A stretch of DNA of 64,000 nucleotides, taken from contig JAULBX010007773.1 of assembly GCA_032358255.1 (NCBI GenBank), positions 1-64,000 on the forward strand, read 5' to 3'. Under the pieces are notes generated by a model, which ran no database searches, was not told the DNA's origin, and saw only the letters and a program-made list of their open reading frames with translations. Numbering within the stretch: the stretch's first letter is position 1; every line of letters starts with the position of its first letter. The DNA comes from Heterotrichella gracilis. Taxonomy: Eukaryota > Sar > Xanthophyceae > Tribonematales > Xanthonemataceae. A program made the position numbers and the translations under genes. Shown one piece after another: positions 1-57,200 of the stretch.

Positions 1-286
1 CCGGCCCCCAGCCCCCGCCCCCCCCCCCCCCCCCCCCCCCCCTCCCGCCACCTGTCACATGCTGTTCACATGCGCTGCTCATCGGCACCAGCCCTTGCCA
101 CAAGTGCCTGCCACTTGCCACTTGGCCAGCCAGCCCCATGCCACTTGTCGCATCCTTACGCACCAACATGCCACTGCCACTGCCGCGCAAACAACTCCTG
201 CAGCCACCCGCCAGGTGTCGAGCGCTCACGCGTTCACCTTGGGACCACCCCGCCACATGTCTCCACCCGCCAGGTGTCAAGAGCGC
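1..286. other. Left-edge non-coding stretch with poly-C run and short repeats
   Basis: This stretch lies downstream (in the minus sense) of the biotin carboxylase stop codon. It starts with a homopolymer of about 25 C at 18-42, followed by short CCACTTG/TGCCACTTG-type repeats. It also holds a degenerate copy (197-245) of the end of the neighbouring last exon, including its stop region; the genuine copy is at 264-309. No gene is supported here. Confidence 0.6.
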
Positions 287-1438
287 TCACGCGTTGACCT
301 TGACCACCCGCTTGTGTGCGCGCGCAGCCGCCTTCTCCACGATGCCGATGGCTGTCTTGACCACCATGGGCTTGGCCAGCTTGTCTGCGTGCTTCACGAT
401 GAAGCCGGTGTCCACCTCGCCCTGCTTGAACTCATCAACGTCCTGAACAAGATGGTGAGAGGAGGGGGTGAGGGAGGGGGGGTAGGCAAATGAAACTGAG
501 GGGTTCACGGGAATACTTGACAAGGATGTAAGTCGGTCAGTGAGTGCAGAAGATGGCTGAGATAGCTCTGACCAGGGTTTACATGTGTAGGAATAACCAG
601 AGCATATACATAGCAATAAAATAATATATGCACAGATTATGTATATTTATATCCATATATTTTAATTCCTACATATACATGCGCGGTGCAACCTGGGCTT
701 AGTAGAGCAACAGCGGGTGGCTTGGCGAGCAGACAAAACACAGCGGCCATTTACCACACCAGCCTTTTACCACAGTGGGCCATTTTCCCACTCACCATGA
801 TGAGCAGGTGTAGGGTTGGTGGTGCGAAACTGGAAATCACCGTCTCAGTCAGGGCCCAGTTCATCCTGATGATGGCCTAATCCCTATCCTCCACCCACAC
901 TTTCAACCCTAAACCCTAAAACCAAACCCCGAGGCCTTCCTGCCCATCACCCACCGCCGCAGCCCACTTCAAACCATGCACACTCACCATGATGAGCAGG
1001 TGGTAGGGGATGGTGGTGGGCACCCCGTAGATCACCGTCTCCGCCAGGGCCCGCTTCATCCTGATGATGGCCTGATCCCTCACTTTCCACGCACACTTTC
1101 AACCCTAAACCCTACACCCCTAAACCTAAGACCTCCGCCTCCCCTTCCCCTCCACCACCTACACATCACCAAGCACACTCACCATGATGAGCAGGTGGTA
1201 GGGGATGGTGGTGGGGACCCCGTAGATCACCGTCTCGGCCAGGGCGCGCTTCATCCGGATAATGGCCTGGTCCCTATCCTCCGCCCACACAATCAGCTTC
1301 CCCAGCAGGCTGTCGTAGTTTGGAGGCACCAGGTAGTCGGGGTACAGGTGGGAATCCATGCGCACGTTGGGGCCGCCGGGTGGCAGGTACCCGATGACGC
1401 GGCCGGGGCCTGGGCGGAAGTTTTGGAAGGGGTCCTCT

Positions 1439-1469
<31 letters not shown>

Positions 1470-4400
1470 TCATCTGTGGGGGGGTGGGGGTTGGGTTGCA
1501 GGGAGAGGGAGAAAGTGGGCAAGAGGGGTGTATCAAGATGGGAGCGAAAGGAGGAGAATGAGGGCATATGTTGTACACATTGCATGACGAAGTTATCACT
1601 GTTTGGTAAGTGAAAGGTAGTGACTGATTGAGTGGCTTTAATGCCCTTAGACAGGCCCAGCAACAACCCTTCTCCTCCTCACACAAAGCTTGTCCAATAC
1701 GCCCTTTTATAACCCTGCCGCATTTCCCTCTGGCAGCCACGCAATCCCCCCTCCAAATCCCTTGCCTGACCAAAACCCAGACACCAGCCAAACCCTGTTA
1801 CCGCAGCCTACCCTCCCTTAAACAATTTCAGGTCCGCTTTCCAACCCACAGTCAAATGCACACCCAGTAATGCCCATGGCTGTCAAACTCACGAGGCCTG
1901 CTGCCTGGATGTGGCTGTATAGGTCCCATGGCACAGTACAGTACATTAGCTTCCACACCCAGCACAGTGACCATGCACAATGCCATGGAACCTGAAGAGC
2001 AACATCAAGGTGGCAGGACTCATGGGCGCCTGACAGCAATGGGGCCACCGACTCCGCAATTTGGCTGGGGATTGGAAAAGGACCCACATAGAAAAAAATG
2101 TGCCAAGGGGTGGGGTTTGGTAGGCCCACAACTGACCCTGGGCAGCCCATCGTTGTACAGCTTGCCCATTTCAACAGCCATGTGGTCATCGGCCAAAGAC
2201 GTTGTGCCTTGTAGTGTTCCCTTTCTCTCTTCCTCCTCTTACTGTACCAATGCTGTCAATGCACTGCTGCGCCAAGTGCTATAGCATCGTGCTCTACCAC
2301 CTCCCACTGCCCTCCTCACAGGCCCTACCTATCCTCTCGCTTGACCGTCAACCCCTCCCACATTGCTCTGCTGCTGCTGGACGAGCCAGCACGGATCATC
2401 CTAAACCCTACCTGCATGCCCCCTTACTTGATCGCCAGCCCTTCCGACCTCAATCTGCTGCTGGATGAGGTCCACATCAAAAACCCTAAACCCTAAACCC
2501 TACACCCTACCTGGATGTCCTCCTGCTTGAGCGTGAGCCTCTCCCCCATGGCCACCTTGATCTGCTGCTGGATGAGGTCAACGCCGGTCACCATCTCAGT
2601 CACGGGGTGCTCAACCTGGGGGGTACATGGGTGGCGTTAGGGTTTTGCGTCTCGTCACGGGGTGCTCAGCTCAGTCCCAGTCACAAGGTACAATTAAAAT
2701 GACTATTGCAGCATTGATTTGGTCACAATGCATAGTGCCAAAGCTTTACCTGGATGCTAGTGTTCATCTCCATGAGCAGACACCCAGGGTTGTACACCCA
2801 ACCCTACAACTTAACCCTTCCCGACGCGGGTGTTCACCTCCATGTGGTACACACCTACACCCTAACCCTCCACCCTAACCCTGACCCTACCTGGATACGC
2901 TTGTTCATCTCCAAGAGGTAGAACCCCTACACCCTCAACCTTGAACCCTGGCCCTCCACCCTACCTGGATACGCGTGTTCATCTCCATGAAGTAGAACCC
3001 CTTCTTCTCCCACAGGAACTCGATGGTGCCCACGCCCACGTAGCCGATGGACTTGGCGGCGTTCACGGCGGCAATGCCCATGGCCTTGCGGACCTGGAGG
3101 GAGGGGCAGGATAAAGATGTTGGGTTAGGGTTTAGGGTTCTAGGGTTTAGGATTTGCGATGCCCATGTTACTCCACCAGCCTGTGATTGGACGCTTCTCC
3201 TTGACAGTAATTCAAGTTGATGCTTTCCATGCAGTGGTCTGCCGGGTTGCGCATGCATTTCCACTTGGCCAATCGTATGACTAATTGAAATGTCCGCTCG
3301 CCACGTCCTTGTACTCAATGTTGGTTGGTTTGTGCGAATGAAAATGCATGCGCCATCTGGCAGCAACATGCATGCGCCAAGGCCAGGTCAGGAGTGCCCA
3401 CTACAACAAGACACATCGACCCCCTATATAAACCCTCAAAAGCGATAGCAGCTCACGGGAACGTGTTCTCACAGTTTTGAAAAAGCACTGATCCTCAACA
3501 CCACATGCAAACATTGGACCCCACGTTTGGCCACCGCCCCTGCATAGCCCCATGCCCGATGCCGGGCTTTGCACCACATGCACATGCACACCCTTCACCC
3601 CTCTTAAGTATCGAGTGCCAGTGGCGTTCATGAATCGGTGCCCATCAGCATGCACCCTGGCCCCACCCCCCGGTGAGCACATATGGCGCTTTAGTGTGTG
3701 AACCTGGCCTTCTCTAGCCCCAACCTCTTCCAAGGCATGCACATTGCGACTGCAAGGTTTCCATAGCCACGCCCGCCCCCTCCCTCCCCCTCCCAAGGCG
3801 TGTACCTCTGGCCCGTCAAAACCGTGGACATTATACCCTAAATCCCGTTTTTCTCCAGCGCGAATTTAGGCAATAGCCCTGGCTCTAAACCCTGGCATCC
3901 GCGCGTACCTCTGGCGTGAGTGCTGGTGAAGGCGCCTCCTCCACCAGCTTCTGGTTGCGCCTCTGGATGGAGCAGTCGCGCTCGTTCAGGTGGATCACGT
4001 TGCCGTACTTGTCAGCAAGGACCTGCACAGGCGGGGTGGGCATGTTCATCAATCCACGGATGATTGCTACGCAGCCCGTCCACGAAGGTATTGATGGTTG
4101 CCAGGCCTCGTTGCGTGCTCTTGGCTGCACAGCCAGTTGCCTCAGATTGGCGTTGCATGATACTAGGCCCGGCATGGCCACACTCCAATCACCCGCCTCG
4201 GCCACCCCCCGCACCTGAAACTCGATGTGGCGTGGGTTCTGCACGTATCTCTCCAGGTACACCGCCCCGTTGCCGAACGCCGCCTCCGCCTCCTGCGTTG
4301 CCTGCCGCAGCAGCTGGATGAACTCACTCTCCTCCATGCACAGACGCATGCCGCGCCCGCCGCCGCCGGCGGTGGCCTTGATCATGACGGGGAAGCCAAT

Positions 4401-19000: not shown

Positions 19001-22000
19001 ACCTTTAGCATGAATGGCCTGGTGTTCTTCTTTTCTGGGGTGTCTGCAGTCAACTTCACTGTGCGGTGGGTGGCGGAAAGGGGGTAATCCAGGGAGGGTG
19101 GCGGGTGGAGGGATTTTGAGGGGGGGGGGCAATGGGTGGTGTCTGGTGGTGTCAAGGAATGGGGGGTGCATATTGGCGGTGGGTGGGAGATTACAGTTGG
19201 GTCAGTGCTGCACTGTATCACCGTTGATTGGGGGGACTTATAATGCAATGTAGTGGCAGGGGCAATGTAGCTCAGGTGTAGGGGTGTTGGGCCGATTTGT
19301 ACGGCATGGATGGCGTGCCTGGCAAGAACAGCATCACATGCAATGTTTAGTTACAGGCAATCCAGCAATACACCCAGATTAGCAGTCAGCTATGCATATG
19401 CGGTGCCAATCTATGTATATATTGTGGAAAGTCCACGAATATTCCGGGCGCACCCACCATCTGCCATGCATCTGCCCTGCATGCAAGCTTCCAGCACCTC
19501 ACATCAATGCCTCTGCTGCGCTTCTCCAGGTCCATCGAGGTCCTGAACAAGAGCGCCATCAGCTACGCAGCGCTGCCCGCCATCTGGGTGTTCCTCATCA
19601 TCTCACGCGGCTTCATGATCCTCATGTATAACCCACTGTTCTGGCTCACAGGCACAGGTACCGGCCCCATCAAATAAGCAACGCTGTCTCATCTTTCTCT
19701 TGGTTCTGCTGCTGTGAGCTGGTTCTGAAGCACACTGCTTTCGCTGGCTTCAACTGCATGCATGAGCTGGATGCATGGGGATCTGCATGCATGGGGATCA
19801 GATTCTGGACTATCACCCCATCTCGTGAGCTGCATGCTGAAGCACGTTGCTGTGGCTGCCTTCAGCTGGATGCTTGAAAGCAACGAATAATCATAGGGTG
19901 GTATTTCTGCAACCTTCTCCGTTTGCAACCCATTTCTGACTGGTGTGGTGGTGTTGCTGCAGCGCTGACCTGGCAGGAGATTGTGTTTGTTGCCTGGGCT
20001 GCCCTGCGCGGCTCAGTGTCCCTGATCATGATCCAGGTGGTGGTCACAGATGCAAAGCTGTCAGCAAGCAAGCAGCTGGTCATCGCACAGGTGCGGGCAT
20101 GATGTGCTTGTTGTGGTTTCTGAAATGTGGGGCATGCTTTCACAAGGGATTGTTTGCAGCTGCTCATGAGCATGTGTGCCTGTTCATTCTTTTTACTACT
20201 CCTGCGCACCATTGTGCACACCCTGCCTGGGTTGTACACAAGCGAGGACGCAGCACAGTGCAACCCCTGGCCCATCACCTGTCCCGCAGATAGCCTTCTG
20301 CAATGCCTAGATGCACACACAAGATCGTATTACTATACCTTATTTCCCTAACCCACAGAACCCGCCCCGCGGATGGCTTTTTGGGCCGCGCAGTGCACTG
20401 GCAAATATGGACCCTTAAACCCTAAACCCTAACTCGTGTTTCGCAGATGGCCTTCTGGACCGCCTGCTTTGTGCTGCTGACCCTTGTGGTGAACGCCTGG
20501 TCCATCCCCTGGGTCATGCGCCTGCTGGGCCTCAGCAAGGTGAGCACCGCAAAGCTGCGCATGCGGGAGAAGGCCAAGCGCGCGCTGCTGCGATTCACAT
20601 CCGCCGCCATCAGCGACCTGCAGCATGATGAGGACGAGCTGCTGAGAGGTGGGTGCTGTTCAGGGGTGATATTGTGTTTGGGAAGAGCCCATGAAAGTGC
20701 TCTGAGAAAACCCTAGTGAAGCAGCATGCCGTCAGCGACCTGCAGCATGATGAGGGCAGGCTGCTGAGAGGTGGGTGGGTGGGTGGGCGCGGCGTGGGGG
20801 TATATTACATTACATGACATTGCATGCGTCCCCCCGGAGGAATGTATTCACCGATGTGGGGTTAGGTGCTGTTTGCGAAAACCCTTGCGAATCATAGTGC
20901 GCTTTGCCTCGGCTGCCATCAGCAACCTGCCTGTGGGTGTAAGGGGCATGCCCAGCCGTCATGGGCTTGATGGCTTGTCGGCCCCTGAGGGGCATTGCAG
21001 CGGGATGTGAGCCCCATTGTGTGTCGCAGGTGTTGACTGGAAGACTGTCTCCCGCTACGTGGACATGAGCACCAGCCTGGGCGACTTTGTCATGGTGCAC
21101 GAAGCGCAGGGCAAGCCAATCGCGAGGTGGGGGGGTGGCGGTTGTTGATAAATGGTTGGATTTGGGTAGCCCACGGCCGTTGTTTACATTATACTCCTGG
21201 ACATGGGGTGCTGTCTGGGAGGCCTGCGTGCGGCACGTCCATTGGGGGATCTGGGTCACAATGTATCAAACTGTCAAAGGTTACCTTGGGGTTGAAGGTA
21301 TGTTTGCAGGCAATAGCTGCAGCAAGACGGAACACATGCATTTGCTGAACTCGCAGCATGTTGTCCCTATGATAAGAATAAGAAAAGTAGCGTACCCTGC
21401 AATGTACCCGTGTTGTTCCTGGGATCTTGACATCGCATGCCCATTTTTGCAGGGAGAACCTGGACGCCTCCGTGGATCCCCGGGAGGACAGCTCTGTGAG
21501 CGGGGATGCCCAGCCAAACCGCAGCCAGCGGAGCGCGGGAGACCTGCTGCGCACATCTGTGGCCAACCTGGGCCGGCTGTTTGCGGGCAAGCCTGCAGCC
21601 GAGGTGCAGCGCATGAAGCAGGATTTGGAGGTGGTCAAGGTGGCGATGGAGTAAGTGGGGTGGGAGAGGGCTGTGTAGATGGATCGGTGGGTAGTGGGGT
21701 GGATTGCTTGGGGGGTGGGATTGAATGGTGGAGATGGTTGTTGGGGCATGGGATGGAATCTTGGTGTGGGCTGGATGCAGGTGCAGTACCATGCGGGATT
21801 GCAGCGCATGACGCATGACCTGGAGGTGGCGATGGAGTAAGTGGGGCGGGCCATTGGGGATTGGGAGGGGATTGTGGTGGAGGTTGATTGCTGGGGAGTT
21901 GGGTGGATTGTTTGGGGGGTGGGATTGAATGGTGAATTGGGTTGTTGGGGAATGGGATGGAACTATGGTGTGGGGTGGATACAGTTGCAGTACCATGCAG

Positions 22001-25000
22001 GGTGCATTGCATGAAGCAAGACCTGGAGGTGGCCAAGGTGGCGATGTACTAAGTGGGGCGGATCGTGCGGGGGTGGGAGGTGATTGTGGTGGAGTTACAT
22101 TGCTGGGGAGTAGGGCGGGTTGTGTGAGGGGTGGGGTTGAAGATGGAGGAAATGGGTGGACTGGTTTGGGCATGGAACGTAGTCATGGGATAGACTAATC
22201 ACCGTTGCTGTTACATGCGTGCTGAGCTTCATCATTCACCGTAGTTTTGTGTAATTAAATAATTCTCCCCTTCCTGGTTGCGGCTGACAATATGGGCTCC
22301 CCCTTGCAGTGGGCCAGCACCTGTCAAGGACTCGCTGAGGGAGAAGACCCTGAGCTCCAGCATGTCAGAGGTAAGGCGCACGACAGAAAAATCCACACAT
22401 CTAACCCCCAAGCACAATTTTTTGTGCAAACCTGATTACATTGCTGCTCCTCATGATGTGCACTTGTTTAGTCAGCTGGCATCGAGCATTGTTCACGTCA
22501 TATGGCTCATAGATTACGAGTCACAGTACGCACGTCAGTGTGACGATAGTTATGATAAGATGCCTTGAGGGCCTAAAGCATGGTGGCTAGTTGTGATAGC
22601 TCGCCATGTTTGTAGGCTCACAAGGTGACATATCTTGACTGTGCTGGCACTGGCATGCATACCATGGCTAGGGCAGCAGGCCTATGTCACAGCAATTTTG
22701 CCACCATTCCCGGGGTTCAATTCCATGCACGCATTGCATGTCGCCTTCCCTTTGCTCAAGGCTGCTTTCAGACGCTGCTGGTTTCTTCACACATGTGCTT
22801 GTATGCCAGTGCGCCAGAGACATGACAGGTTGCTTGTAACTTCAACAAGGGGGCTGACTTGCTCATCTTGCTCTTGAGCGGGAAAGCATGTAACAAAGGT
22901 GGCTATGAGCTTGTTGAGTCAATATGGTTGCGCATACAGCACCTGTCACCACATCCCTCGTGCCTGTGCATGCCTCGTAAATCACTTCCTGTGGCCTGTG
23001 TTTTCCCAGCTGCACAAGAGGGCCGAGGGGGGGAGCGACAGCGATGACGTTGATCAGGAGGTGCCCTTCTACATGCCTGCTGACCTGGAGGACGGCTACG
23101 GCAGTGATGAGTCGGCGCCTTCATCGGGGAGCAGATCGCAGGTGCGGCGCCGATGAGGGTTTAGGGTTTAGGTCATAGGTGCATTGCAGGTACTGGTGAT
23201 CATGTGTGCAATTATTGTAATGCTGTGCAATATTATAATGATTGTTGTTGTTATTTATTCTTGCTTTTGAGCGGAAATGCATGTAATATATATGTAATAT
23301 GTTATTATATCTTATACTGAATTGTTATTATTATTCTTATAACCAATTAATTGGTTACAAGAAGAATTGTTCTTGTGATAAAGAATTAGTATTTTTTTAT
23401 TGTTATTATCGCATGTGCTGGCCTCACGACACCCACATACGCCTGACACATGCACCCAAATGGCTAACTGCAGGATGCGCCACCAGCCGTGCGCCCGCCC
23501 GCCCTCGCGCGCTTCTCCGTCACCAACATGGGCACCTCGCCATACCACATGGGCCCCACGCCCCACAACCACCACCGCAAGCCGCCCCAGCGGCGCGCGC
23601 CAGACCCCCCCCCCAAGGCACGCTCCGTGAAACTGGAGTCGGTGCGCGAAGGGGTGCGGTCGCCGTCCGCAGACGCCACCGCCGCCGCCGTGCCGCCACC
23701 GCCGGAGCCGCGGCGGGTCTCGCCGCATGATTCGGTGGTCTCTGCCCCCGCGCCTGGAGTGGACTCGAGCTCGGATGTGTCGGTGCCCACCACAGCCACT
23801 GCCGCAGCCACCGGCAGCATTACTGATGCTTCTGTTGGGGTCAGCGTGGCAGGGGCTGGGGCTGGGGGGGTGGCGGCAGGGCCGCCGGCGCTTGCGCGGG
23901 TGTCGGGTCTGGTGGTGCAGATTGGGTTTGAGGTTGCGGGGCATGAGGAGCAAGGCGGGGTGAAGCTGTCCCTGCGGGAGGTGGGCGTACCCCCTGCAAG
24001 TGGGCTGGGCATCGCTGCACAGGTGAGGGGGATGGCAGGAGGGGAATGGGGGGGATGCTGTGCGGGGTTTACCAATATCGCCAGTCTCCATTTGAAATGA
24101 ACTGCTGATGGAAGACTCTTATTGGCCTATCAATTGAGGAAAGGGGTTGATCATATCATTTGCGCGTGGCTTGTAGTGTGCATGTGCTGTTTGTGTTTTG
24201 GAATCCGAACAAGCACCCTGACATCCCTCCTTTGCCGCTGTGCAGCCCAGTCCAAGGCCTACTCCACTGCCCACCCCACGTGCGGCGGCCGAGGAGGTGG
24301 CAGGGGAGAGTAGTATGGATAGGGCAGGATCGGGCAGCAGGCGGCCGCCCACAAGGTGCGCTTTTCATCATCCCAAATCAATGAAAATTGGAATTTTCAG
24401 ATATTTGTATATTTTATAAGTATTCAAACCATGATCGCAAGATGACACTGCTTGCTGATCATCCAGTATCATGCGCCTGACTGTCCTTGCACCGGCACCA
24501 ATATCCATCACCACATGTATTGTCACCAGCCAACTCAAGGTCGCTCTGACACCCTCCGCCTAATTCAGAAACCCTGAACCCTAAACCCCGCTTGTTGCAG
24601 CAAGAGCAGCGGCGTCCAGCTGCGCAGCGGAGCCCTGGCCTACCTGGCCCAGCTGGAGCGCATGGAGAGCAAGGGCAAGCAGCCACTGGGCCATGCCAAC
24701 ACCACCGGTGTGCTGCCCAACACCTCCCGCCCCCCCCTCCCCTTTGGCCCCTCGCCCCTGGGGTCCAGCCAGTCGCTGGCTACCTCCAAGTCGGATGATG
24801 ACCTGGCGGGGGGGAGTACTGCAGCGAAGGCAAGCAGCTCCAGGGGGCTGGCGTCCACCAGGTGGGGGGGGTTCCAACCTGTACTCCATCGTGCTTTGGC
24901 CGGCTGGGGTATGTACGGGCAATTCTGCCAAACTTTGAAAAACTGTTGCAAAAATTGAACAGTTTCAGAATGGGGCAGGGACAGTGCTCCACATGTGGGG

Positions 25001-31000: not shown

Positions 31001-33584
31001 CAGAGGAAGACGCCACATCCACATTCACACCAGATGAGGTGAGTTTGTTGCATTCATTCCAGCGATGCAGCCAGATCAGCAGTCAGTTTTGAGGTACTGG
31101 CAGGGAGGCAGAGGTGGTTCACAATGTGGCTCATGCACACCCATCAGATGCGGTGGGGCTTGCAGTGACATGCAAATGCACCCTAGTAAATGTTCCCCTT
31201 TTTGTTACTTTATTTCACCACCACCACAATAGCTGCGACAGCACGTGAGTTTCCCGGCAGCTGCGCCTCCTGGCAGGGGTATACTAATATACCAACTACT
31301 ACTATTATGTTAGTGTATTAGTTATACCCCTGCTCCCGGCAATTATGCACCTGGCAGTGCCCCTAACCGTTGACCAATTACCTGCCGCCCCTACCACACA
31401 GGGCCACCACACCCACACCCTGGGCTGGACTGCGGGAACCCCAAACCCTAAATGCAAACCCTAAACCCACTCCTGCCACACAGGGCCACCACACGCACAC
31501 CCTGGGGCCGGACGGGGTTGACGGCGGCAGCCCCCGCTACCCAGCTGACTTCAGCCAGGCAGGGGAGGAGGGGCGATCCCGGCGCCACCCGGCAGTGAAG
31601 CGCAAGCACCTCACACGCATCGCGCAAACCGTGCTGCCAGATGGTGCGCGCAGACCCAGCCGGGTAACACCCTGCCAATTTTAGGGTTTTTGATAGGTTT
31701 TTTCAGTGGAGCTGTCAAGGCTGGACGACATTGTTCGAGATGCCAATCATATTGCTGTCACTGGTTCTGCGTTACAAGCATTAGGGGTGGAGCTGCAAAG
31801 CATGTTTCACATGTGTGGCAGAGACATGCTGCATGGAGGCTGTCCAAGGAGATGCACAAGGCCCAAGGCTGATCTCCTTGCCCACAGCTTACATACCACA
31901 CAGGGCCATAAACCCTAAACCCTAAACCCTAAACCCTAAACCCTAACCGCACACATGCCCTGGTGTCCCCCTAATACTGCGCGCTTCACCCACCAGCACC
32001 CACCTGCACAGCTACCCACCCATCCTTGTCCTTGTGCACGTGAGGCCATTGCCGGTATAGCAAACCTTCACCCACTCAGGCACAATCACCTATCCCCCCA
32101 AATTGCCCTGCGCCCAATGATCTCCAAGGGGCTGTGCAATCACCCTACTACCACATGTTTTTCTCCAAGGGACTGTGCAATCACCCTACTACCGCACGTT
32201 TTACCCCACCAGTACCCACCCAGGCACAACCATTCACCCACCCTTTCCCCTAGTACCGCATGTTTTGCCCACCTGCACAACCACCCACCCTCCCCCATGT
32301 CCCTGTGCGCAGCGATCTCCGAGGGGGCTGTGCAATCACTCTGCCGCGTGTTTTACCCAAAAGCACACCCACCAACCCTTCCTCATTGTGTGCAGTGATC
32401 TCTGAAGTGAAGGACGGGCTGCCGCTGGCCTCGCTGCACCAGATACCCGAGGGCAGCCAGTTGACCCAGCGGGCGCACATGGTGGTGCTGGGGGGGCAGC
32501 TGCAGGTCATTGAGGCGGACTCAGGCTACATGCCCAAAGGTGTGGGGGGTGGGGGGTGGGGGGTGGCGCTGCGGGGGGAATGGCTGGGGGGGATGGTGGC
32601 GGTGGGTGGGCAGTGGGGAGGAGGGGTGAGGTTGTGAGTGTTGGTGTGTGTGTGGGGGGGGGGGTAGGGGTAGGGTCAAGGTTTATGGATATGCAACCCT
32701 TTTCGCATGCGTTCTCCGTGCGATTGTAGAAGCATGCGCATGTGCTGGAAAGCCGCTGTCAATGCAGGGCACAATCTAAGGTTCAGGGTTTGCATACCGT
32801 TGTTGGCCATTTGAAGGGTCCTCCCTGAGCCTTGCCTTGTGTGTGCGCTCCACAGGCACGCACCAATGCAGCGGCCCCTGCCTGGTGCCCTGGCTGTTCT
32901 CCTCGCCCATCTACCGCCACGTGCACCCGCTGCCGCGCGCCGTGCACCACGTGGCGGGCAAGGGGGGCGCGATAGTCATCATGTGCCACGAGGACCCCAT
33001 GCTGGGCCGCAGCCCCTTCCACAAGTCTGCGTCGGGGCTGCTGAGTCCCGGGGAGGGCAGTGACGGGGATGATGATGTTTCGGTGCGCTCGGCCACTAGC
33101 AAGTCCTCGTCCAGGATCGGGGAGCTGAAGAAGAGGTGCGGGGCAGCCCTGTTAGGGTTTCGGGTTAGGGTTTAGGGTTTCCTGTGTGTTCCACGATCGG
33201 GGAGTTGAAGAAGAGGTGTGGGGCAGCCATGTGTGTTGTACCTGGACTGTCACCTGTTCAGGTTTCAAGGGTTAGGGTTAGGGTTAGGGTTTCCTGTGTG
33301 TACCACCTGTGGGCATGCCATGAGGCGTTTTTCAGCTGGGCAATGTGGCTGAGGGGGGCCTGGGGAGCACTCCCTAGCTTGGCAACGTGACTGCTGATGA
33401 TGATTACTCTGCACACTGCTTGGCTTGTACTGCTACCCATGGTTGTGTGCGCTGATGGGCTGTGCCCCCCTGCCCCCCTGCCTGCAGGTTCTCGTTGTGG
33501 CCGCGCACCTTTGGGGGCCTGGAGGTGACCCGCACACACAGCATGAAGGGCATGCTGGGCAGGGAGATGGTGAGGCAGGAGTGA
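16073..33584 (+). CDS. SOS1-type plasma-membrane Na+/H+ exchanger with cyclic-nucleotide-binding-like domain, 33 exons
   Basis: Exons: 16073-16178, 16419-16541, 16664-16827, 17127-17316, 17907-18095, 18501-18586, 18821-19065, 19530-19657, 19963-20090, 20447-20648, 21030-21126, 21453-21650, 22310-22370, 23010-23141, 23474-24022, 24246-24355, 24601-24861, 25245-25438, 25677-25826, 26161-26267, 26567-26768, 27156-27286, 27500-27594, 28896-29061, 29275-29353, 29656-29783, 30026-30237, 30509-30619, 30891-31038, 31484-31643, 32396-32539, 32856-33135, 33488-33584. Total 5373 nt, 1790 aa, in frame throughout. Residues 1-510 form the CPA1 exchanger core, with STDAIAVTSVL and GESLLNDASALTLF (the ion-binding ND near 212) and ALRGSVSLIMIQ. 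Residues about 640-1110 are a low-complexity Ser/Pro/Ala insert. Residues about 1340-1500 (LRGLPFFRELPDKVFEQVM, FKRGEILM, GMFIVIQGLV) form a cNMP-binding-like fold. Plant SOS1 exports Na+ and is ~1150 aa, so this protein is much longer. Exons 17 and 18 are coding duplicates. Confidence 0.9.
17426..17451. repeat. Perfect 26-bp palindrome in intron 4 of the SOS1-like gene
   Basis: CATGCCCCATGCG is followed directly by its exact reverse complement, giving a loopless 13-bp-arm inverted repeat. It lies about 110 nt downstream of the exon 4 donor. The next outward base pair does not match. Confidence 0.95.
19348..19408 (-). repeat. 60-bp intronic dispersed repeat, copy 1
   Basis: Antisense copy in intron 7 of the SOS1-like gene. 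The shared core, read forward, is CTGACTGCTAATCTGG followed by TGTATTGCTGG and a GCATGTAACTA-like end, preceded by GGTGCCGCATGTGCA. Confidence 0.8.
20281..20446 (+). repeat. Repeated 3' splice site plus exon 10 start (two upstream copies)
   Basis: The exon 10 opening (CGCAGATGGCCTTCTGGACC at about 20442) is preceded by copies at about 20283-20310 (GCAGATAGCCTTCTG) and 20362-20396 (CGGATGGCTTTTTGGGCCGC). CCCTAAA units lie just before the genuine acceptor. Confidence 0.75.
20731..20940 (+). repeat. Copies of the exon 10 3' end plus donor
   Basis: The exon end at 20610-20660 (GACCTGCAGCATGATGAGG to CTGAGAG|GTGGG) is repeated at 20731-20778 with the donor intact, about 122 bp away. A shorter relic of the same region (TCGGCTGCCATCAGCAACCT) lies near 20908. 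Confidence 0.8.
21651..22061 (+). repeat. G-rich tandem array carrying two copies of the exon 12 3' end
   Basis: The exon 12 end (GAGGTGGTCAAGGTGGCGAT, donor at 21651) recurs at 21778-21845 with an intact GTAAGT and at 21975-22061, where the donor GT has mutated to CT. The intervening G-rich intron sequence is repeated too, giving a unit of roughly 190-210 bp. Confidence 0.85.
23324..23371. repeat. Inverted repeat with an 18-bp perfect palindromic centre, intron 14
   Basis: TAACCAATTAATTGGTTA at 23340-23357 is self-complementary. It is flanked by imperfect arms (ATTCTTAT on the left, ACAAGAAGAAT on the right) in a very AT-rich intron. Confidence 0.8.
25072..25265 (+). repeat. Duplicated acceptor region before exon 18
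   Basis: About 75 bp ending in CACCCCTGCAG and the start of exon 18 (about 25180-25265) has a decayed relative at 25072-25145 (CCTGCACAGGCTGCAGCGGC). Exon 18 itself duplicates the exon 17 start: both encode VQLRSGALAYL. Confidence 0.7.
27711..28163 (-). CDS. MAPEG-family protein (microsomal glutathione S-transferase 3-like), intronless, nested antisense in the SOS1-like intron 23
   Basis: This is a single-exon ORF of 150 aa starting at the ATG encoding MDYTKVAPAFG; a TTG further upstream is not needed. MAPEG proteins are four-helix membrane enzymes that conjugate glutathione to lipophilic electrophiles or reduce lipid hydroperoxides, usually in the ER or outer mitochondrial membrane. The diagnostic MGST3 signature is visible: ARKKYKVTYPALYADK in the first loop, then FNCIQRGHQNSLEAQPSFL, which carries the conserved Asn/Gln/Arg/Glu residues. 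Three further hydrophobic stretches follow (SRYPITAATFGAVFLVGRVM with YFQGYASKGP, then two helices to the end), and the length is typical (about 150). It lies wholly inside the 1.3-kb intron between exons 23 and 24 of the exchanger, on the opposite strand, with about 0.7 kb of upstream sequence in the same intron. Lack of introns in an intron-rich neighbourhood suggests retroposition or recent insertion. Confidence 0.92.
   Translation of the reverse strand: MDYTKVAPAFGLVVLEVAASSLVHHIWMAFKVGGARKKYKVTYPALYADKATHGETQAHEFNCIQRGHQNSLEAQPSFLATLLVSGSRYPITAATFGAVFLVGRVMYFQGYASKGPKGRQLGALVSGIANIGLIVTTIVTAVPLVKAFFA
28650..28920 (+). repeat. Duplicated 3' splice site plus exon 24 start, with CCCTA units
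   Basis: ACCCTACCAATCCC-x-CTGCAG followed by the exon opening (GCCATGGCTGTG) occurs at 28738-28790 as a copy with an in-frame TAG, and at 28877-28910 as the genuine site. GCTCGCCCCAAAACCCTA units repeat upstream. Confidence 0.8.
31043..31092 (-). repeat. 60-bp intronic dispersed repeat, copy 2
   Basis: Antisense copy (core CCAGATCAGCAGTCAG) beginning a few bases after the exon 29 donor at 31039 in the SOS1-like gene. Confidence 0.75.
31273..31333. repeat. Inverted repeat with 18-19 bp arms, SOS1-like intron 29
   Basis: GCAGGGGTATACTAATA at 31273-31290 is matched by its near-exact reverse complement at 31315-31333, with one single-base gap and a spacer of about 24 bp. It resembles a tiny MITE or a hairpin-forming element. 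Confidence 0.8.
31385..31510 (+). repeat. Duplicated acceptor plus exon 30 start with CCCTAAA between
   Basis: CACACAGGGCCACCACAC followed by CACACCCTGGG occurs at about 31396-31427 and again at the genuine exon start (31478-31507), period about 82 bp. Two CCCTAAA units lie between. Confidence 0.85.
31909..31946. repeat. Longest interstitial telomere-like array (five CCCTAAA units)
   Basis: Five perfect tandem CCCTAAA units sit in intron 30 of the SOS1-like gene. It is the longest perfect array in the window; shorter or degenerate tracts occur at more than a dozen other intronic positions. Confidence 0.95.
31990..32400 (+). repeat. Degenerate tandem array of acceptor-region copies before exon 31
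   Basis: The genuine exon 31 start (GCAGTGATCTCTGAAG, 32392) is preceded by related units at about 32118 (TGATCTCCAAGG), 32158 (TTCTCCAAGG) and 32309 (GCAGCGATCTCCGAGG). Each of these three is followed by a GCTGTGCAATCAC-like segment, and the intervening CACCCACC-rich sequence recurs. Confidence 0.75.
33113..33310 (+). repeat. Copy of the exon 32 3' end plus donor, with TTTAGGG units
   Basis: GATCGGGGAGCTGAAGAAGAG|GTGCGGGGCAGCC at the exon 32 donor (33136) is repeated 80 bp downstream at 33193-33229 with the donor intact. Each copy is followed by a GGGTTAGGGTTTAGGG-like tract and TTTCCTGTGTGT. Confidence 0.9.
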
Positions 33585-46240: not shown

Positions 46241-48550
46241 ATGTCCAGTATTTGCCAACCGAGCACCAGCTATGGCACCAGCGTAGCCACTGGCGGTCGC
46301 CACCCCCGTCCCGTGCGGCATGTTGCCCACATACATATGCAACAGCCATCTAGCAGGCGGTTTCGTAGGACAGCCTGCAAAGACCTTTGCCGCAGCCTGC
46401 AGTCGGCTCTGCGGTCAGTCGAGGTGTCTGCACCACCCTCCGAGAGCAGATCACTAGTGGTGGAGAAACCCACAGGTTAGTACGATAACCCATCGTGCAT
46501 GCAGTGCATATTCGGTGCCAAGGTCTGGGCCTGCACACTAGCTCTGGGCGCTGTACAGCGCAAGCAAACCAAGCCATCCTGAGCCGAGACAGGCTTGGGA
46601 AATTTGTCTTTGCACACTGTTTGTCTCCTAACGTTCCGTGTGGTGATGGTGTGCAGTTTCAAGCTGGCTGCCCCGTGCCTCCACAGTGGCTGTTCAGGTG
46701 TTGGCAGTCGCTGCAGTCCACCAGCTGCTCCTGGTGCACCCCGCCCTGGCCTCAGGGGGAACACTACCCGTCGAAATCCTGCAGTCATGGCTGGTAAGGC
46801 CTACATGAGAGCATATATATGCTGGTTGTTTTTCTATAAGGGGAAGGCGCACAGTAGGTGGTGGTTAGCTGACCCTGTGTGGTGCTTCTGCTGCAGGAGC
46901 AAGTGCAGGCGCTTGGACCATATGGGCCAGTGCTGTTTGTTTTCACAGTGGCGGCCACAGAGCTCATCCCCCTTTTCCCCACACAGCCGCTGTCTCTGGC
47001 CAGCGGGCTACTGTTCGGGGCGCAGCAGGTACAACCCTTAACCTAAACTTTAAATTTTAAACACAGTCACTGACACTGGCCAGCTGGCTACTGTTCGGGG
47101 CGCAGCAGGTACAACCCTAAACCCTGTACACTGTAGTTGGCAGGGATACTGCAACCCGTGCTTTGCACCGCTGCCAGTGAAGAGTGGCTGCTGCTGCTTT
47201 GCTGCGAGCCACCTGTTGCACGTTCACAGATGAGGCCACACCTGCGTTAAGTATCCCACTGAGTTGCATAAATGAAAATTGGACAAAATTGCTGAAAATC
47301 CTTCATACAAGTTTACGTATGTTGCAGGGAGCGTTGTGCATGCTTACGGGCACCACACTGGCAGCGATCATCGCCTTTGCGATCGCAAGGGGGGCGGGCC
47401 GAAAACTCGCAGAGCGTATGGTCAGCATGGAGACAGAGGGGGACAAAGCTGGCCCCATGCAGAGGAAGATCGCAGAGCTGCGGGTAACAATTGAGAACGG
47501 TTCGTTTTGGGAGCAGTTCACTGCAGTCACTCTGCTCCGCTTGACGCCAATCTTGCCCTACAGGTACCACAACCCAGCCCATGTCTGCGCCCTGCTTGAT
47601 GTAGTAATAGCTTTTGCTCCAGTGCATGGGTCATTCAAGTTGATGGTGTATGTTCAAGTATGGCAACCCATCGACCGTTTTTCAGCATGCTGGCGTTGTG
47701 CCCTAGCCCTGCTTATTGACTCAAAATCAGCTTGCTCATGTGCATGCGTTTTGCCTGTTGATCGGAAATAAGCAAGCGCATGTGGAGGCGTTTGCCTGTT
47801 GATCCAAAAACCAGCATGCTCATGTGGTTCCTCCTGCCTGCAGCGCCAGCAACTATATCCTGGGCCTGACGCCGCTGCAGTACCCTGCATTCCTGGGGGG
47901 TACTGTGACGGGCATGACGGTATGGGCGGTGCTGTACGCATCCATTGGCGGGGCCAGCCGCTCGCTGCTCACGAGTGGAGTGGGCTTGGATGGCGTGCTC
48001 GCAGGTGTGCAGCCTGTCAACGTTGGTGGAATGTGACACGGATGTTGACTTGTGCTAAGTACATTGATCTTGATGTCAAGTGCTTGACAATGGTGGTGGA
48101 ATGTGTTGCTGATTTTGACCTGTGCCAAGGGCTCACTCAAATTGTGCTGCTGCATATGCAAATTGCGGTAGTGTTTTGGGTTGCATCTCTACAGGGGTAG
48201 CATGCCCCTGCCTTTCATGGGGACCTTTGCTTTTGCCAGTGTGTCTCTGACGACATGCTGGCCTGTACCTGTGCCCAAACTTAGTCATGGAGCAGGTATG
48301 TATCTGCTCATATGCTTCACGTCGTTATGTACTTTGTTGAATTGTTTTTGCAGAGATGGCGGGGAAGGCAGCAATGATCACAGAGAAGGCAGGCGAGGCA
48401 GCGCTGGCAGCAGGTGTTATGGCGGCAGCCTTCTACCTGCTCAAGCGGTCAGGTGTGCTGTTCACAAAGGCCAAGCCAGCCACCCATCCAGCTGAGGAGG
48501 AGGTGGACGCACAGGCTGAGCTGCTGGAGCGAGTGCGGAACCGGCGCTAG
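46241..48550 (+). CDS. VTT/DedA-domain membrane protein (TVP38/TMEM64 family), probably plastid-targeted, 6 exons
   Basis: Exons: 46241-46475, 46657-46793, 46897-47028, 47328-47563, 47844-48004, 48354-48550; 365 aa. The N-terminal ~80 residues are Ser/Arg/Gln-rich with few acidic residues, resembling a plastid transit peptide. A hydrophobic segment follows (STVAVQVLAVAAVHQLLLVH), then the SNARE-associated/VTT domain: ATELIPLFPTQPLSLASGLL, GALCMLTGTTLAAIIAFAIA, and the signature FTAVTLLRLTPILPYSASNY followed by ILGLTPLQYPAFLGGTVTGM. DedA/VMP1/TMEM41 relatives are lipid scramblases or transport half-transporters; the plastid substrate is unknown. The C-terminal tail (MAGKAAMITEKAGEAALAAG, a last helix, then an acidic and basic end) is extra to the domain. 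The intron after exon 3 contains a copy of that exon's last 14 codons with both splice sites (47067-47108). Confidence 0.87.
47067..47108 (+). repeat. Duplicated exon 3 end forming a potential 42-nt cassette exon (VTT gene)
   Basis: This 42-nt segment copies the last 14 codons of exon 3 (genuine 46987-47028), 80 bp downstream. It is bounded by ACACAG before and GTACAACCC after, keeps the same frame (SLTLASWLLFGAQQ) and has no stop. Using both sites would leave only a 38-nt upstream intron, which may be too short; the copied donor alone could also be used. A CCCTAAA unit follows. Confidence 0.8.
47708..47835. repeat. Three-copy degenerate tandem repeat, unit about 45 bp (VTT intron 4)
   Basis: Units with core TGCCTGTTGATC and AGCATGCTCATGTG-like ends recur three times just before the exon 5 acceptor. 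Confidence 0.7.
48019..48130. repeat. Two-copy tandem duplication, VTT intron 5
   Basis: GTTGGTGGAATGTG with a following TTGACTTGTGCTAAG segment at 48023-48060 recurs at 48090-48130 as GGTGGTGGAATGTG with TTGACCTGTGCCAAG, a period of about 68 bp. Confidence 0.75.
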
Positions 48551-52569: not shown

Positions 52570-53810
52570 TCATTGCGCCTTTGCCTCGAGTCCCAAGCAT
52601 GCCTTCTCCAGTACTCCTTGTTGGTATTGCCTTGATGCTACCCTCCGGGTGGCACCATCCACCACTCCCACCTCGCTGTAGAGGTTTGCACCGTTGACCT
52701 GCACGATGCTGTACACGCCCAGCGGGAAGAGCAGGAGCCCCGTGTCTGCATCTGTGGAGAACCTGTGCAGCAGAGGTAGCAGTCAAGTAGAGCACTAAAT
52801 ATTAAAACCTTCAAAAGAATTTGTAGAATACTGAAGTAAGAGGGTAAAGTTGTACTCCTCCGGTGTAAAGAGTTAGGTATTTTCGCGCCTTGACTTACGA
52901 ACATCACCAACAGTTGACAACTAGCAGCATTGAGTCACAGTGATTATTTATGTGTTGCCCACCTGATTGCCTGCGTACTGTCAGCTTTGATTTCCCCGCT
53001 GGTTCTGGTGAACGTTTTCCCGCTCTGCAGCTCCCATGTGCCCTGAAGGCTGGAAGCATCCAACCGCTCCTTCTCAGCAAACGCCCCAATCCCACCACCA
53101 CACCCGCTCAAGTCAGCACCGCGCACATAGGGCCCATCAAACTGCTCCCTGTGGACGTCCAGGGTCAGCAGGTCCAGGGTGTTGGTGTCATACCGCCTCT
53201 TGATGGACTGCGTCACCCTGATCCTCTCCTTGCCGGACGTGGACAAACAGTAGTGCAGCGTGACCGCGTCTGTCTCCCCCTCAAAGCTGTCGGGTCCCAG
53301 GCTGTAGCTCCCATCCTCCAGGAAGGTGGTGAAGGCCTCTGGAGAGACTGCGTCACTCAGCTGCTCTATGAAGGCAACGGCGTCCGCCTCACAGCCCACT
53401 GTGGGCATGAGGCGCTTCAGGCTGAGCTCAAAAGAGTCTTCCAGGGCGTGTGTGCTGCACTGCGTCTGCCAGTTGAACACCTTCACTCCCCACTCTGCGT
53501 ACGCCTCGGGCACGTAGCGTGACGGCACCTCCTGGGCAGTTGCATCCCTGTTGAAGGTCGCGGTAGAGCCCTCCCACTCGCCCGAAACAGCTGCAGCAAA
53601 GCTTGCCCATGCAGGGTCCTGGCTGGAGAGAGAGGTTGAAGCTTGTGGTACAGATGCCCTGCAGCACGTGTCTGCTGGAGCCCTGGGCTGCAGGTGCAGC
53701 TGAGCTAGCTGCTTGATGCTGCCGCCCTTGACGAGTGTGGTAGATTTCTTGCAGAGTAGCCTGGTGAGGTTGGGTGAAGACAGCGAAGTGGCCATGGCAG
53801 CAGTGTTCAT
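52570..53810 (-). CDS. Conserved plastid protein of unknown function (plant/algal family, lipocalin-like), 2 exons
   Basis: Exons in coding order: 53810-52963, 52762-52570; 346 aa. The first ~65 residues are Ser/Thr/Lys-rich with Ala near the start (MNTAAMATSLSSPNLTRLL), as in plastid transit peptides. The mature part begins WASFAAAVSGEWEGSTATFN and continues VPEAYAEWGVKVFNWQTQC, LMPTVGCEADAVAF, LSGCGGGIGAFAEKERL and LQGTWELQSGKTF. From memory of plant genomes, this matches a single-copy chloroplast protein family whose paired GxW motifs recall lipocalin-like or DUF3598-type barrels; the family name is uncertain. The second exon ends in a Gln/Arg/Ala-rich tail. No catalytic residues are apparent. 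The gene is convergent with the MBL gene (244 bp apart) and divergent from the TPR gene. Confidence 0.75.
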
Positions 53811-54271
53811 GGTATACCACCTCCAGTTGTTGCGTCACTGGTCAACCTTTATAATACAAACCCGATGCAACGACGTCCTGCACTGACTCTTAGCCCTTGG
53901 AGAAAAAATAGGCCTTGGTATATGCATGCATTGTGCCCACCTTATCTTATCCCACTCTGCCTCACATGCCTGTTGCCAACTTGCAGCAGCCCCAATGCAC
54001 ACCACAGACTGCGTTTTGATGGTATGTTGCTGGTCCACAACACAGCAGTCTAGACAGCTTTTTGGTTGGTCATCTAGCTGTTGGGCGGGTGGTGTATATT
54101 TGCGTTGGCATGTTGACATTGGGGCTGCCGGACTTTTGCAAAGCATCGTTGTAGATCCTAAGGGGTACCCCATAGAGAGGATAACAGCGAGGCCCACCTG
54201 GTATGCTGCCTGCATACTAGGCCACCGTGTCGTATTCTGCCTATTCTTTCCCGTTCCTGCTGAAGTAAGCC
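53811..54271. other. Divergent intergenic region between two plastid-protein genes
   Basis: A compact 461-bp spacer between two divergent genes whose products both appear plastid-targeted, consistent with a bidirectional promoter. No specific motif identified. Confidence 0.5.
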
Positions 54272-57200
54272 ATGGCAGGCGTCGCCACCTGCTCCATGTC
54301 TAGCAACCACACACTAGCTCGTCCAGGCCAAGCCACGTTTCTGCCAAGGCTTCTTCCAGCATCACGCAGCATCAGGCACTGCAGACTCCGGGTTGTGAGC
54401 AGCGATGCTCAGCGAAAGGGCTTTGGCAAAGTCGAGGAGAGCAGCAAGGTACTATTGGCAGCCATGCCACTTGCGTTCAATACTGTATGCACGATACCAT
54501 TCAACCTCGGTTGAATGCAGTTGAAACAGGTTCAAATAGCTTGATAGTATTGCCTGTGCACGTATGGTGCATGTGAAGCACATAGCTAGGTGCCAACCCT
54601 AGTGTCATATAAACCCGAATGGCGTTTGCACACAGTCCAGCAAGAGTGCACCAGAACAGAAGGGCAAGCGGGTGAAGCAAAAGGGGAAGAAGTCCATGCG
54701 CTTGCCTGGCGGGGGCCCACAGCAGCAGCAGCAGCTACAGCAACAGCCCACCGGCACGCTCAGCGACTCCGCCCTCCCCTCCTTGGTCAATTTCGACCCC
54801 CTTGAGGACCAATACAGGTGCACCCAACATTAAATCCCACAGCCTAGACTGTTGGTCTGCACTTCTGTCTGACGATGGGTCTGACACTCCAGCTGTCACG
54901 GAAGCATAGTGGGCTAGCTGTTGCAAACGCCACTTTGCATCCAATGCAACCCTGCCGAGCATTGCATTGCGTTGTCATGCACTGATATACCTGACAAGCA
55001 TTTGACTGGTGGTGCATGGCCTTACAGGCGCAAGGTCCAGGCCAAGCAGGATGGCGTGGAGGACCCGGCGGTTGAATTTGAGCAGCGGTTGGCAGCGTTG
55101 AAAGCAGAGGGCCGAGTGCGCAAAGCGGTGAGACGTGACCTGCACTGCACTGACTGACAAGCCCACATGGTCATCAATATCCTAGACATTGCCTGTGCAT
55201 TTAAGCACCTTAGCTAGGCCTCTCAATCCTTTCATGCCTGCCAACTGCCAAACGGCACGCACCCCGCATGCACTGGAAGTTATGCATGGAAGCTGAAGCC
55301 CGCATTGGGGTGTGTGGTCAGGAGTTGAAGCCAGACCAGCCCAAGAATGTGCTTGATGCGCAAGCCGGAAGCATCTACGACAACCCGCCGCCGCTCTCCC
55401 AGACCCTGTTCTCTAGCAGCCAAAGCCCGGCATCTCCCAGCGGCAGCAACGATGCATTTGGGCCCAGCAAGGTGCGCCACACATGCTCGATCAAGAAAAT
55501 AATGAGACATAAAATCAAACCCTATACCGTTGTACATGCCATTGGTGATGGGTACCTCGCCCTGGCCATGTACAACCATGTACCAGGCACATGCTCTGCA
55601 TGCTGTGCACCCATGGAGGGAATCCTGTCACTTCTGGGGTCAGAACTATCACGCTCAAGCTGCAGCTACAAGAGATAAGCAGCCCATTTAGTGCGTCGCG
55701 TGTGCTGCTGCACCAGTTTCATAGACAAATGCTTCATGTGTCTTGCAGATCGGCCTCACAATCGGCACTTTCCTGCTGATCGGTGTCTTCCTGATTGCTG
55801 GTGTGTCGGGCGACGTCTTCACCCCAAGCAGCTCTTCTAGTGGCTCAGACCAGGTATGTGTCCACACCTCCCTGCACCCAACTGAAACCCTATCACCGCC
55901 CATGCCATGGCAGAAGTTGTGGTTCTGTCCCCGGTACCCTACGCCAGGCACGCTTACCACACCCTTCTAAACCCCCAGCAAACAGCACATTCTGCCCCTC
56001 ACTGCCACAGCTGCGACTCACCCCCATACCAAATGTAGTGGCTCAATGCGCAGGCAGCAGTCTACGAAGCCAAGCTGAAACCCAAACCCTACCCAAAACC
56101 AGGTCAACCCTAGCAAACCTCACCTTTTGCCCTTTGCTGCCGCAGCTGCAACTCACCCCCGACCAGAAGGAGCGCCTCAAGGCGCAGGCAGCAGGGTACG
56201 AAGCCAAGCTGGCCGCCTCCCCCGAGGACACAACCTCCCTGGAAACTGCAGCAGCCATCTACTCAACCCTTGGCGATTTCCCCAAGGCCAACTCCCTGCT
56301 GAAGCGCCTGACAGAGGCCAAACCCCACGACCCCGATGTGTGGCGGCTGCTGGGAGAGGTCTGCTCCGCGCAGGGCGAGGCGGGCGGGGCGGTCGAGGCG
56401 TACCGGCAGGCCATTGCGGTGGCGCCGGTGGAGGATCTGGATCTGCTGCAGGGCCTGGCGGACGCGCTGATCGCTGATGGCAAGGCGCAGCAGGTGGGCC
56501 TAACCTCTGAACCCTGATTCTTATATAAAAAATAACCCTTCGCTGCATTGGCATCACATGCATGGCAGCCGCAACCCCTCTTGCCACACCCACACACCCC
56601 ATCCCACCCCACATCACCCAGCAGGTGACCTGCTGCAGCCTGCCACACACAGCCATGCGCCGCGCCCTAGGGTTCTTGTAGGGTTTTTCTCAGCCCACAT
56701 CGCATCCACCCTGCAGGCAGTCGAGGAGGTGAAGGCTGTCATGGCTCGAGTGGAAGCAGCCCCCGCAGAGGCTTCTGGCAGCGAGGATGGGTTGAGCGGC
56801 GTTGAGCTGAAGCTGTTGCTGGGGCGCGTGTTTTCTCAGTGGCGGGGCCATGGGGTGGATGCGCTGGCGGTGTACGATGGGATCATACAGGTAGGGTGTA
56901 GGGTGTAGGGTATTTTGGTGTTGTAGGGCCACAAGGGGGTGATCAGAGTGTAGGGATGTAGGGTTGACGGGGCTGGAAGCTGCTGCTGGGGCGCGTGTTC
57001 TCGCAGTGACGGGGCCATGGCGTGGATGCGCTGGGGGTGTACGATGGGATCTTACAGGTGGGGTGTGGGGTGTAGGGCTTCCGGTGTACGTTGAGATCAC
57101 ACAGATAGGGTGTAGGGTTCAGGGTTTCCGGTGTACCATATGTTGGGATTATGCAGATGCCAGGCAGGGCAGAGGTTTGTAGGGTTTAGGGTTTGCGGCT

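Follow-up and report, generated by a model that had tools for sequence, protein, structure and literature searches.

Duplicated exon edges in the introns of Heterotrichella gracilis and their association with telomere-like repeats

Introduction

The stretch of DNA analysed here, called the window throughout, is the first 64 kb (positions 1 to 64,000, forward strand) of contig JAULBX010007773.1 (C79 in our numbering) in the assembly GCA_032358255.1 of Heterotrichella gracilis (Xanthophyceae). In several of its genes the end of an exon with its donor site, or the beginning of an exon with its acceptor site, occurs again inside the adjoining intron. The question raised by this locus is by what process exon edges are copied, and whether the edge is really the preferred target. 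A preliminary description, made from the letters of the window alone, had proposed a process focused on exon boundaries that lengthens introns. Here, the copying of exon edges is confirmed as genome-wide in a sample of the assembly, and the lengthening of introns is borne out.

Sequences and Gene Models

The assembly comprises 68.5 Mb in 903 contigs. Besides the window, 25 stretches of 10 kb were taken from other contigs; one of them, L002 (contig C1), was excluded for its GC content of 36%, which left 24 stretches and the window, 304 kb in total. The count of repeat pairs and its Markov control refer to the window and 20 stretches. The tests on 337 introns, the placement geometry and the column identities refer to the first gene model on 20 sequences, and the final cluster set and later analyses to a retrained gene model on 25 sequences.

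Genes were predicted by a hidden Markov model (HMM) of codons, splice sites and introns that was trained on the sampled sequence itself, with five stretches with Pfam matches as seeds, one of which (VTT) lay under the Pfam cut-off when seeded. The HMM converges on strong consensus sites, with the donor CAG/GTGNGK and the acceptor TGCAG/G (the slash marks the exon border), and the final model contains 408 exons of at least 30 nt. Spliced predictions recover an MTHFR domain over model positions 1–287 of 287, as well as class I tRNA synthetase and PP5 domains, and those of the window yield the Na+/H+ exchanger and VTT domains. When two arbitrary pieces were scanned against Pfam, no match appeared.

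Duplicated Exon Edges in the Window

The preliminary description had counted about a dozen exon edges in at least five genes and had named self-alignment as a check. When the window is compared with itself, 19 local direct-repeat pairs with a spacing below 3 kb are obtained (E ≤ 1e-3, identity 74–94%), in whose alignments an exon end with its donor, or an acceptor with its exon start, recurs inside the adjoining intron. Under the gene models, pairs spaced by less than 1.5 kb group into 14 clusters, of which 12 contain coding sequence and 2 are entirely intronic. The 12 are spread over five genes, in agreement with the earlier count: three each lie in accC, in a Na+/H+ exchanger gene and in the gene predicted after it, one in a VTT-domain gene and two in a TPR gene. 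The identity of all but the third of these is supported by Pfam or PDB. The clusters, with their sources in brackets, are the following.

789..1290, minus strand: accC exon end with donor GTGAGTG, tandem array of three copies with a unit of about 192 bp; the copy at 1176–1290 is the true exon end and is matched by a PDB biotin carboxylase, and AACCCTA repeats lie within the duplicated unit (self-comparison, alignments).
2400..2582, minus strand: accC, intron copy of an exon end with donor GTAGGG, telomeric AAACCCT repeats between the copies (self-comparison, alignments, gene models).
2760..3002, minus strand: accC, array with units of about 70–74 bp of exon end, donor and telomere-like CCCTAAC stretches (self-comparison, alignments, gene models).
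20606..20777, plus strand: Na+/H+ exchanger, 43 nt of exon end with GTGGGTG, copy 122 bp downstream, identity 92% (self-comparison, Pfam).
21603..22141, plus strand: exchanger, three copies of exon end, donor and intron start, units of about 195 bp (self-comparison, gene models).
24605..25312, plus strand: exchanger, acceptor-side pair 25092–25140 and 25217–25265, with a farther coding pair at 24605 and 25252, offset 647 (self-comparison, gene models).
28736..28933, plus strand: gene after the exchanger, upstream copy of acceptor and exon start, 81%, AAACCCT in and between both copies (self-comparison, alignments).
31390..31506, plus strand: gene after the exchanger, 35 nt of acceptor and exon start, 94% identity, copies separated by AAACCCTAAA (self-comparison, alignments).
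33110..33306, plus strand: gene after the exchanger, exon end and donor, copy 80 bp downstream, 91%, with the filler TTAGGGTTT between; a second, overlapping intronic repeat lies at 33156 and 33261 (self-comparison, alignments).
46981..47123, plus strand: VTT-domain gene, exon end and donor GTACAACCCTTAACC, copy 80 bp downstream, 90% (self-comparison, gene models, Pfam).
55973..56211, plus strand: TPR gene, upstream copy of acceptor and exon start, 81%, copies separated by AAACCCTA (self-comparison, alignments).
56809..57134, plus strand: TPR gene, exon end with donor GTAGGG and two more copies downstream, the second degenerate (self-comparison, gene models).
19714..19877, plus strand: first entirely intronic repeat cluster (self-comparison).
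32080..32342, plus strand: second entirely intronic repeat cluster (self-comparison).

The protein predicted at 28.4–33.6 kb, after the exchanger, has no Pfam match in its first 254 aa. A PPP gene, which the preliminary description had listed as a less clear case, was not identified in the window, whose predicted proteins were scanned only in part; a PP5-like gene was found in the sampled stretch L009.

Frequency and Anatomy Across the Sample

An intron was taken to hold a direct copy when the adjoining 80 nt of exon matched it with a Smith-Waterman score of at least 30. This is so in 45 of the 337 introns with both flanking exons (13%); 30 introns contain the tail of the upstream exon again, and 19 the head of the downstream exon. 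When the same exons were compared with 10 other length-matched introns each, tail copies appeared in 0 of 3,370 comparisons and head copies in 1 of 3,370. In the same set of 337 introns, neither reverse-strand edges nor the far ends of exons 160 nt or longer had any copy in their own intron. The repeat pairs tell the same: 93 direct pairs lie within 1.5 kb, with a median offset of 132 bp, against 0 in one Markov-resampled replicate. The copies therefore exceed a random background. Only 4 inverted pairs occur within 1.5 kb, and only 2 direct pairs are separated by 1.5 kb or more inside one 10-kb stretch, which makes template switching in both orientations unlikely.

The final set consists of 72 clusters: 67 join coding and non-coding sequence (edge clusters), 2 are wholly coding and 3 are classed as non-coding, one of these three holding 5 coding nt and one other cluster (46981–47123) having moved from this class to the edge class when the HMM was retrained. 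A single border is involved in 51 clusters, namely a donor in 29, an acceptor in 17, a stop codon in 5 and a start codon in 0; the lack of start codons would be expected if an upstream ATG were harmful. In 48 of these 51 the copy is on the 3′ side of a donor or stop codon, or on the 5′ side of an acceptor, the arrangement already described for the splice sites in the window. The smallest offset per cluster ranges from 62 to 237 bp, close to the 70–210 bp reported earlier, with 49 clusters at 62–136 bp, 5 at 158–169 bp and 18 at 182–237 bp. The gap between aligned copies is 0–129 nt with a median of 49.5 nt in 50 single-pair clusters, values that decayed copy ends may inflate. The source is wholly exonic in 12 pairs, and 7 of these 12 derive from sequence 14–70 nt inside the exon edge. 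Most single-border clusters sit at donors and acceptors, as in the earlier claim that an edge is copied together with its splice site, but the five stop-codon clusters and the seven interior pairs mean that a splice site is not required.

Several factors that might govern the position of the clusters were rejected. From 5′ to 3′, the introns overlapping an edge cluster number 19 of 147, 37 of 127 and 22 of 111 in the three thirds of genes, with the excess in the middle third and none at the 5′ end, which speaks against a promoter-proximal bias. CpG-driven repair finds no support in the relation between exon CpG content and duplication rate (Spearman 0.02). Heterogeneity from gene to gene is slight, clusters per gene being only weakly overdispersed (62.8, 48 degrees of freedom); the edges touched per stretch are overdispersed (chi-square 109, 23 degrees of freedom), but this count includes both copies and both edges of one event. 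In a class I tRNA synthetase gene, of the valyl type by eye (L017, 6914–7363), a unit of about 90 bp made of acceptor and exon start is repeated several times with the frame open, and it is labelled a protein repeat by the gene finder.

Focus on Coding Borders

A focus on exon edges might be only apparent, if ordinary tandem duplications fall anywhere and constraint on one copy keeps the edge cases recognisable. When units are placed at random on sequence from which the duplications have been removed, 54–77% of the placements that are non-coding or cross a single edge are wholly non-coding, so that geometry alone puts 23–46% across edges. Furthermore, 89.0% of exon columns and 85.1% of intron columns are identical between copies, so constraint does prolong visibility. 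Because non-coding pairs decay twice as fast, a forward simulation was built that includes the birth of duplications, substitutions and indels, applies the search used on the real data and is fitted to the identity seen in the edge clusters; placements wholly in exons or spanning several borders are excluded. Per 67 edge clusters, simulated uniform duplication predicts 82 intronic and 67 intergenic non-coding clusters; with about three times more indels and stronger constraint, it predicts 69 and 70. Against the 139–149 non-coding clusters expected, 3 were observed, all in genes, which is a deficit of 23- to 27-fold within genes, and between genes there are 0 against 67–70.

Relaxing the search adds only few non-coding pairs. 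At three looser thresholds, edge pairs number 82, 90 and 100 and non-coding pairs 10, 16 and 24; only 3, 6 and 8 of the latter lie away from edge clusters, all intronic and none intergenic, and a per-feature shuffle yields 0, 0 and 1 pairs, the one being wholly coding. In 15 of 59 edge clusters (first gene model) a score of 50 or more is reached by the intronic part on its own, and purely intronic duplications of that age should therefore often be visible. Since the non-coding deficit survives a simulation that includes detection loss, survival bias does not explain the focus, and births concentrate on coding DNA or its borders; uniform duplication is accordingly an unlikely explanation. The focus on exon edges put forward in the preliminary description is real and well beyond the uniform null. 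It is not splice-specific, for borders at stop codons are duplicated as well, so that splicing itself is not the cause.

State and Age of the Copies

In the 37 copies with at least 30 exon nt, a net frameshift occurs in 12 and an in-frame stop in 9; 18 show at least one of these defects. Between copies there are 0.224 differences per synonymous site and 0.103 per nonsynonymous site, and codon positions 1, 2 and 3 show 92, 58 and 138 differences over 785–789 sites each. These rates are about what is expected of a copy drifting at about 0.10 beside an exon that changes mostly at silent sites, with the gap between positions 1 and 2 unaccounted for, and the copies may still be under a weak residual constraint. 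The GT is retained in 17 of 22 donor copies and the AG in 11 of 14 acceptor copies, and the identity of the exon part has a mean of 87%. Many copies do keep these dinucleotides, as stated before, but no better than the rest of their sequence, and since retention is close to copy identity no decoy function need be assumed. The copies look dead, which goes against the earlier suggestion of decoy or alternative splice sites.

The best pair reaches at least 92% identity in 8 of the 67 edge clusters and at least 96% in 1. In a fitted age profile the youngest bin holds 3.2 events, against 22–29 in each of the next three bins. Such a scarcity of young events speaks against an undiminished ongoing process, and the ongoing process of the preliminary description is not supported in that form, unless the assembler has collapsed young tandem copies.

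Telomere-Like Repeats

Telomere-like repeats, on which the preliminary description was silent, are abundant in the introns. TTTAGGG is described as the likely ancestral telomere motif of green algae (PMC12636532). The four commonest intron 7-mers in the sample are rotations of this motif or of its complement, and the 7-mers in all rotations reach 9.6/kb in introns, 0.8/kb in exons and 1.7/kb in intergenic sequence. They peak 0–40 nt after donors in both orientations and 20–40 nt before acceptors in the C-rich orientation, and they concentrate 0–60 nt from donors and 20–60 nt from acceptors, duplication-free introns included. The acceptor peak coincides in part with the branch-point zone, in which CTNA-type pentamers are likewise most frequent, and so may be partly selected.

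Duplication goes together with the motif. Donor edges are duplicated in 28.6% of cases with a telomere 7-mer within 60 nt (n = 105) and in 8.3% without (n = 315), and acceptor edges in 29.5% (n = 61) and 6.7% (n = 359), respectively, a rise of 3.4 times for donors and 4.4 times for acceptors. Genes whose introns without duplications are rich in the motif also carry more duplications (Spearman 0.43, P = 0.002, 49 genes). In single-pair edge clusters the 7-mers cover 11–14% of the intronic part of the copies, 11.5% of the gap and 2.4% of the next 60 nt, and they are about five times denser in the duplicated zone than just beyond. In 45 such clusters the motif occurs in the gap only in 9, in the gap and both copies in 9, in both copies only in 4, in copy 1 in 2 (one of them also in the gap) and nowhere in 21. 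The causation between motif and duplication can run in either direction.

Other Features of the Sampled Sequence

In an intron of the TPR gene, a 75-bp stretch (window 57213–57289) has, among the matches listed, at least about 40 relatives on other contigs with 79–88% identity. It has no tRNA match and no Rfam match, and is a short dispersed element. Five loci were compared with the whole genome, and their only dispersed matches were to this element, to a (CCACAG)n repeat and to short pieces, which for these five loci speaks against an introner as the source of the copies; introner terminal inverted repeats were rejected, the motif at acceptors being oriented the wrong way. The (CCACAG)n hexanucleotide repeat (L017, 9884–9999) matches at least about 40 places in the genome among the matches listed. 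The contig of the window opens with a C-rich run, mostly C (1–46).

The excluded contig C1 (894 kb) has no local duplications in the 10 kb examined, with a GC content of 36%. The first 3.3 kb of L002 encode DUF4369, DUF5106 and AhpC/TSA thioredoxin-fold domains, a set usual in Bacteroidota, and C1 probably belongs to a co-assembled bacterium of that group.

Discussion

Local direct duplications, the decay of one copy, an excess at coding borders and co-location with telomere-like repeats are seen directly. The copies are small local duplications of DNA and did not arise by splicing. We read them as the result of repair at staggered breaks that lie in exons or close to them, in which ends are filled in and joined and telomeric filler is frequent, and give this reading a probability of about one half. 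A break with staggered ends would arise in, or directly beside, a coding exon. Both single-stranded ends would be filled in and then joined, and their overlap (about 30–200 nt) would become a direct repeat, often accompanied by tens of nt of filler, frequently telomere-like (TTTAGGG). A duplicate wholly inside the exon would harm the protein and be lost. One across a border, whether donor, acceptor or stop codon, would leave the original exon intact and the second copy non-coding and decaying, and the outcome would be growth of introns by dead copies of exon edges. Staggered-break repair had been suggested in the preliminary description, and it fits the direct orientation, the short range and the frequent filler; we infer the break, the fill-in and the end joining, as well as any part played by telomerase or the CST-Pol alpha machinery.

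Several results weigh against this reading. The breakpoints revealed no mechanism, and neither a relative nor a second haplotype offered an empty site; five loci queried against the whole assembly gave no second haplotype contig. A paralogue of the tRNA synthetase gene (L029) was considered as an empty site and rejected as too diverged, its protein pieces being 32–75% identical and its predicted exon borders mismatched. Random breaks predict no preference for coding borders, which is contradicted by 67 edge clusters beside 3 non-coding ones, and the coding focus would require an extra cause, as structural variants are described as rarer in rice exons (PMC7971508). Offsets do not form one smooth class, for 11 of 72 fall at 189–198 bp (scan P = 0.011, post hoc); a link with nucleosome spacing is only a guess. 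Copies from the exon interior without the edge would be unlike a simple tandem duplication unless the remainder has decayed. As for the filler, 21 of the 45 single-pair edge clusters lack a telomere 7-mer in copies and gap alike, the repeats are equally dense in copies and gap, and 105 motif positions are common to both copies, so that some arrays predate the duplication. After stop codons the 7-mers are not raised (2.0–3.1/kb in the first 400 nt, 49 gene ends), so motif and duplication are not always linked.

Transcription- or nucleosome-linked breaks, or repair with a diverged partner that is anchored in similar exons, are candidate reasons for a start in coding DNA. A stronger form of the staggered-break reading, which we hold only tentatively, is that a repair process of this lineage is initiated specifically within coding DNA or at coding borders, duplicates the edge and adds telomeric repeats, and that introns grow mainly from dead exon ends. 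If so, introns would be a dated record of breaks in exons.

The telomere-like arrays might instead come first. Their position near edges may have a separate cause, such as branch points or donor-like GTAGGG, and they may be fragile, so that replication stalls, slips back 60–240 bp and duplicates the adjoining edge. This would agree with the motif hugging donors and acceptors even in introns without duplications, with the 3.4- and 4.4-fold higher duplication rates, with the gene-level correlation (Spearman 0.43) and with the motif in both copies. However, 6.7–8.3% of edges with no 7-mer within 60 nt are duplicated, many clusters (the 21 of 45) have no motif in copies or gap, and stop-codon borders are duplicated where motif density is not raised; we consider this order of events doubtful. 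Birth of new introns by duplication (Rogers-type gain), rather than addition to existing ones, has a precedent in a potato gene that gained an intron by duplication across an intron-exon boundary (PMC4974935) and one possible case here (L008, 302–512), with a donor predicted in copy 1 and an acceptor in copy 2. It is very unlikely as the general explanation, given that the copy lies on the side of intron growth in 48 of 51 single-edge clusters and, in 41 of 51, contains less than 15 nt labelled as exon.

Retention of copies as decoy or alternative splice sites could draw on the GT kept in 17 of 22 and the AG in 11 of 14 copies and on the 10 of 51 single-edge clusters in which the gene finder labels at least 15 nt of both copies as exon. 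We regard it as highly improbable: the dinucleotides are kept only at the level of overall copy identity, 18 of 37 copies have a frameshift or stop, and the nonsynonymous rate fits a drifting copy. An assembly artefact that mis-joins haplotypes alike in exons and different in introns would also produce local, direct, exon-anchored repeats. This is scarcely credible in view of the 18 of 37 broken second copies and the 58 of 789 differing second codon positions, both unlike working alleles, the arrays of three or more differing copies (window; L017) and the lack of a second haplotype contig for the five loci queried.

For a visible share of the intron sequence a local origin can be identified here, namely the edge of the adjoining exon. 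Should the coding focus hold genome-wide, breaks or their repair would be uneven and concentrated on exons, and the addition of telomere repeats may participate. In literature searched mostly without subscription journals and preprints, we found no earlier description of exon-edge duplication on a genome-wide scale, and none of telomere-like repeats located at exon edges.

Parts of the process have parallels elsewhere. Fill-in at breaks with 3′ overhangs, by the CST-Pol alpha-primase machinery that also fills in telomere ends, is described to give small direct duplications (Schimmel et al., 2021; PMC8355091). The commonest source of insertions in rice is described to be tandem duplication, enriched at 50–200 bp, and the density of structural variants there is described as lower in exons than in introns (PMC7971508). 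Like these staggered-break fill-in products and the patch-mediated repair of rice, the duplications described here are direct, apparently adjacent, tens to about 200 bp long and in need of no repeat family; unlike them, they are nearly confined to coding borders and often carry about 50 nt of filler and telomere-like repeats.

In mammals, telomeric repeats are reported to be inserted at double-strand breaks, occasionally accompanied by a target duplication (Nergadze et al., 2007; PMC2246262, PMC7215372), the latter at 6 of 130 rodent, 4 of 25 primate and 3 of 66 horse loci. Such interstitial telomeric sequences resemble the arrays here in being short, in lying in introns and hardly in exons, and in the occasional target duplication. 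The intron share of the human ones is given as that of random insertion (PMC7215372), whereas the motifs here crowd close to exon edges, and their density in introns is about six times that in intergenic DNA. In the potato RdRp gene, a tandem duplication across an intron-exon boundary is reported to have created a new intron (Ma et al., 2016; PMC4974935), and since a boundary duplication made an intron there, the events described here are possible raw material for intron gain. The duplicate likewise combines an exon edge, its splice site and a piece of intron; the potato case concerns one gene and a new intron, whereas in H. gracilis about one intron in seven or eight is affected and it is mainly existing introns that are lengthened.

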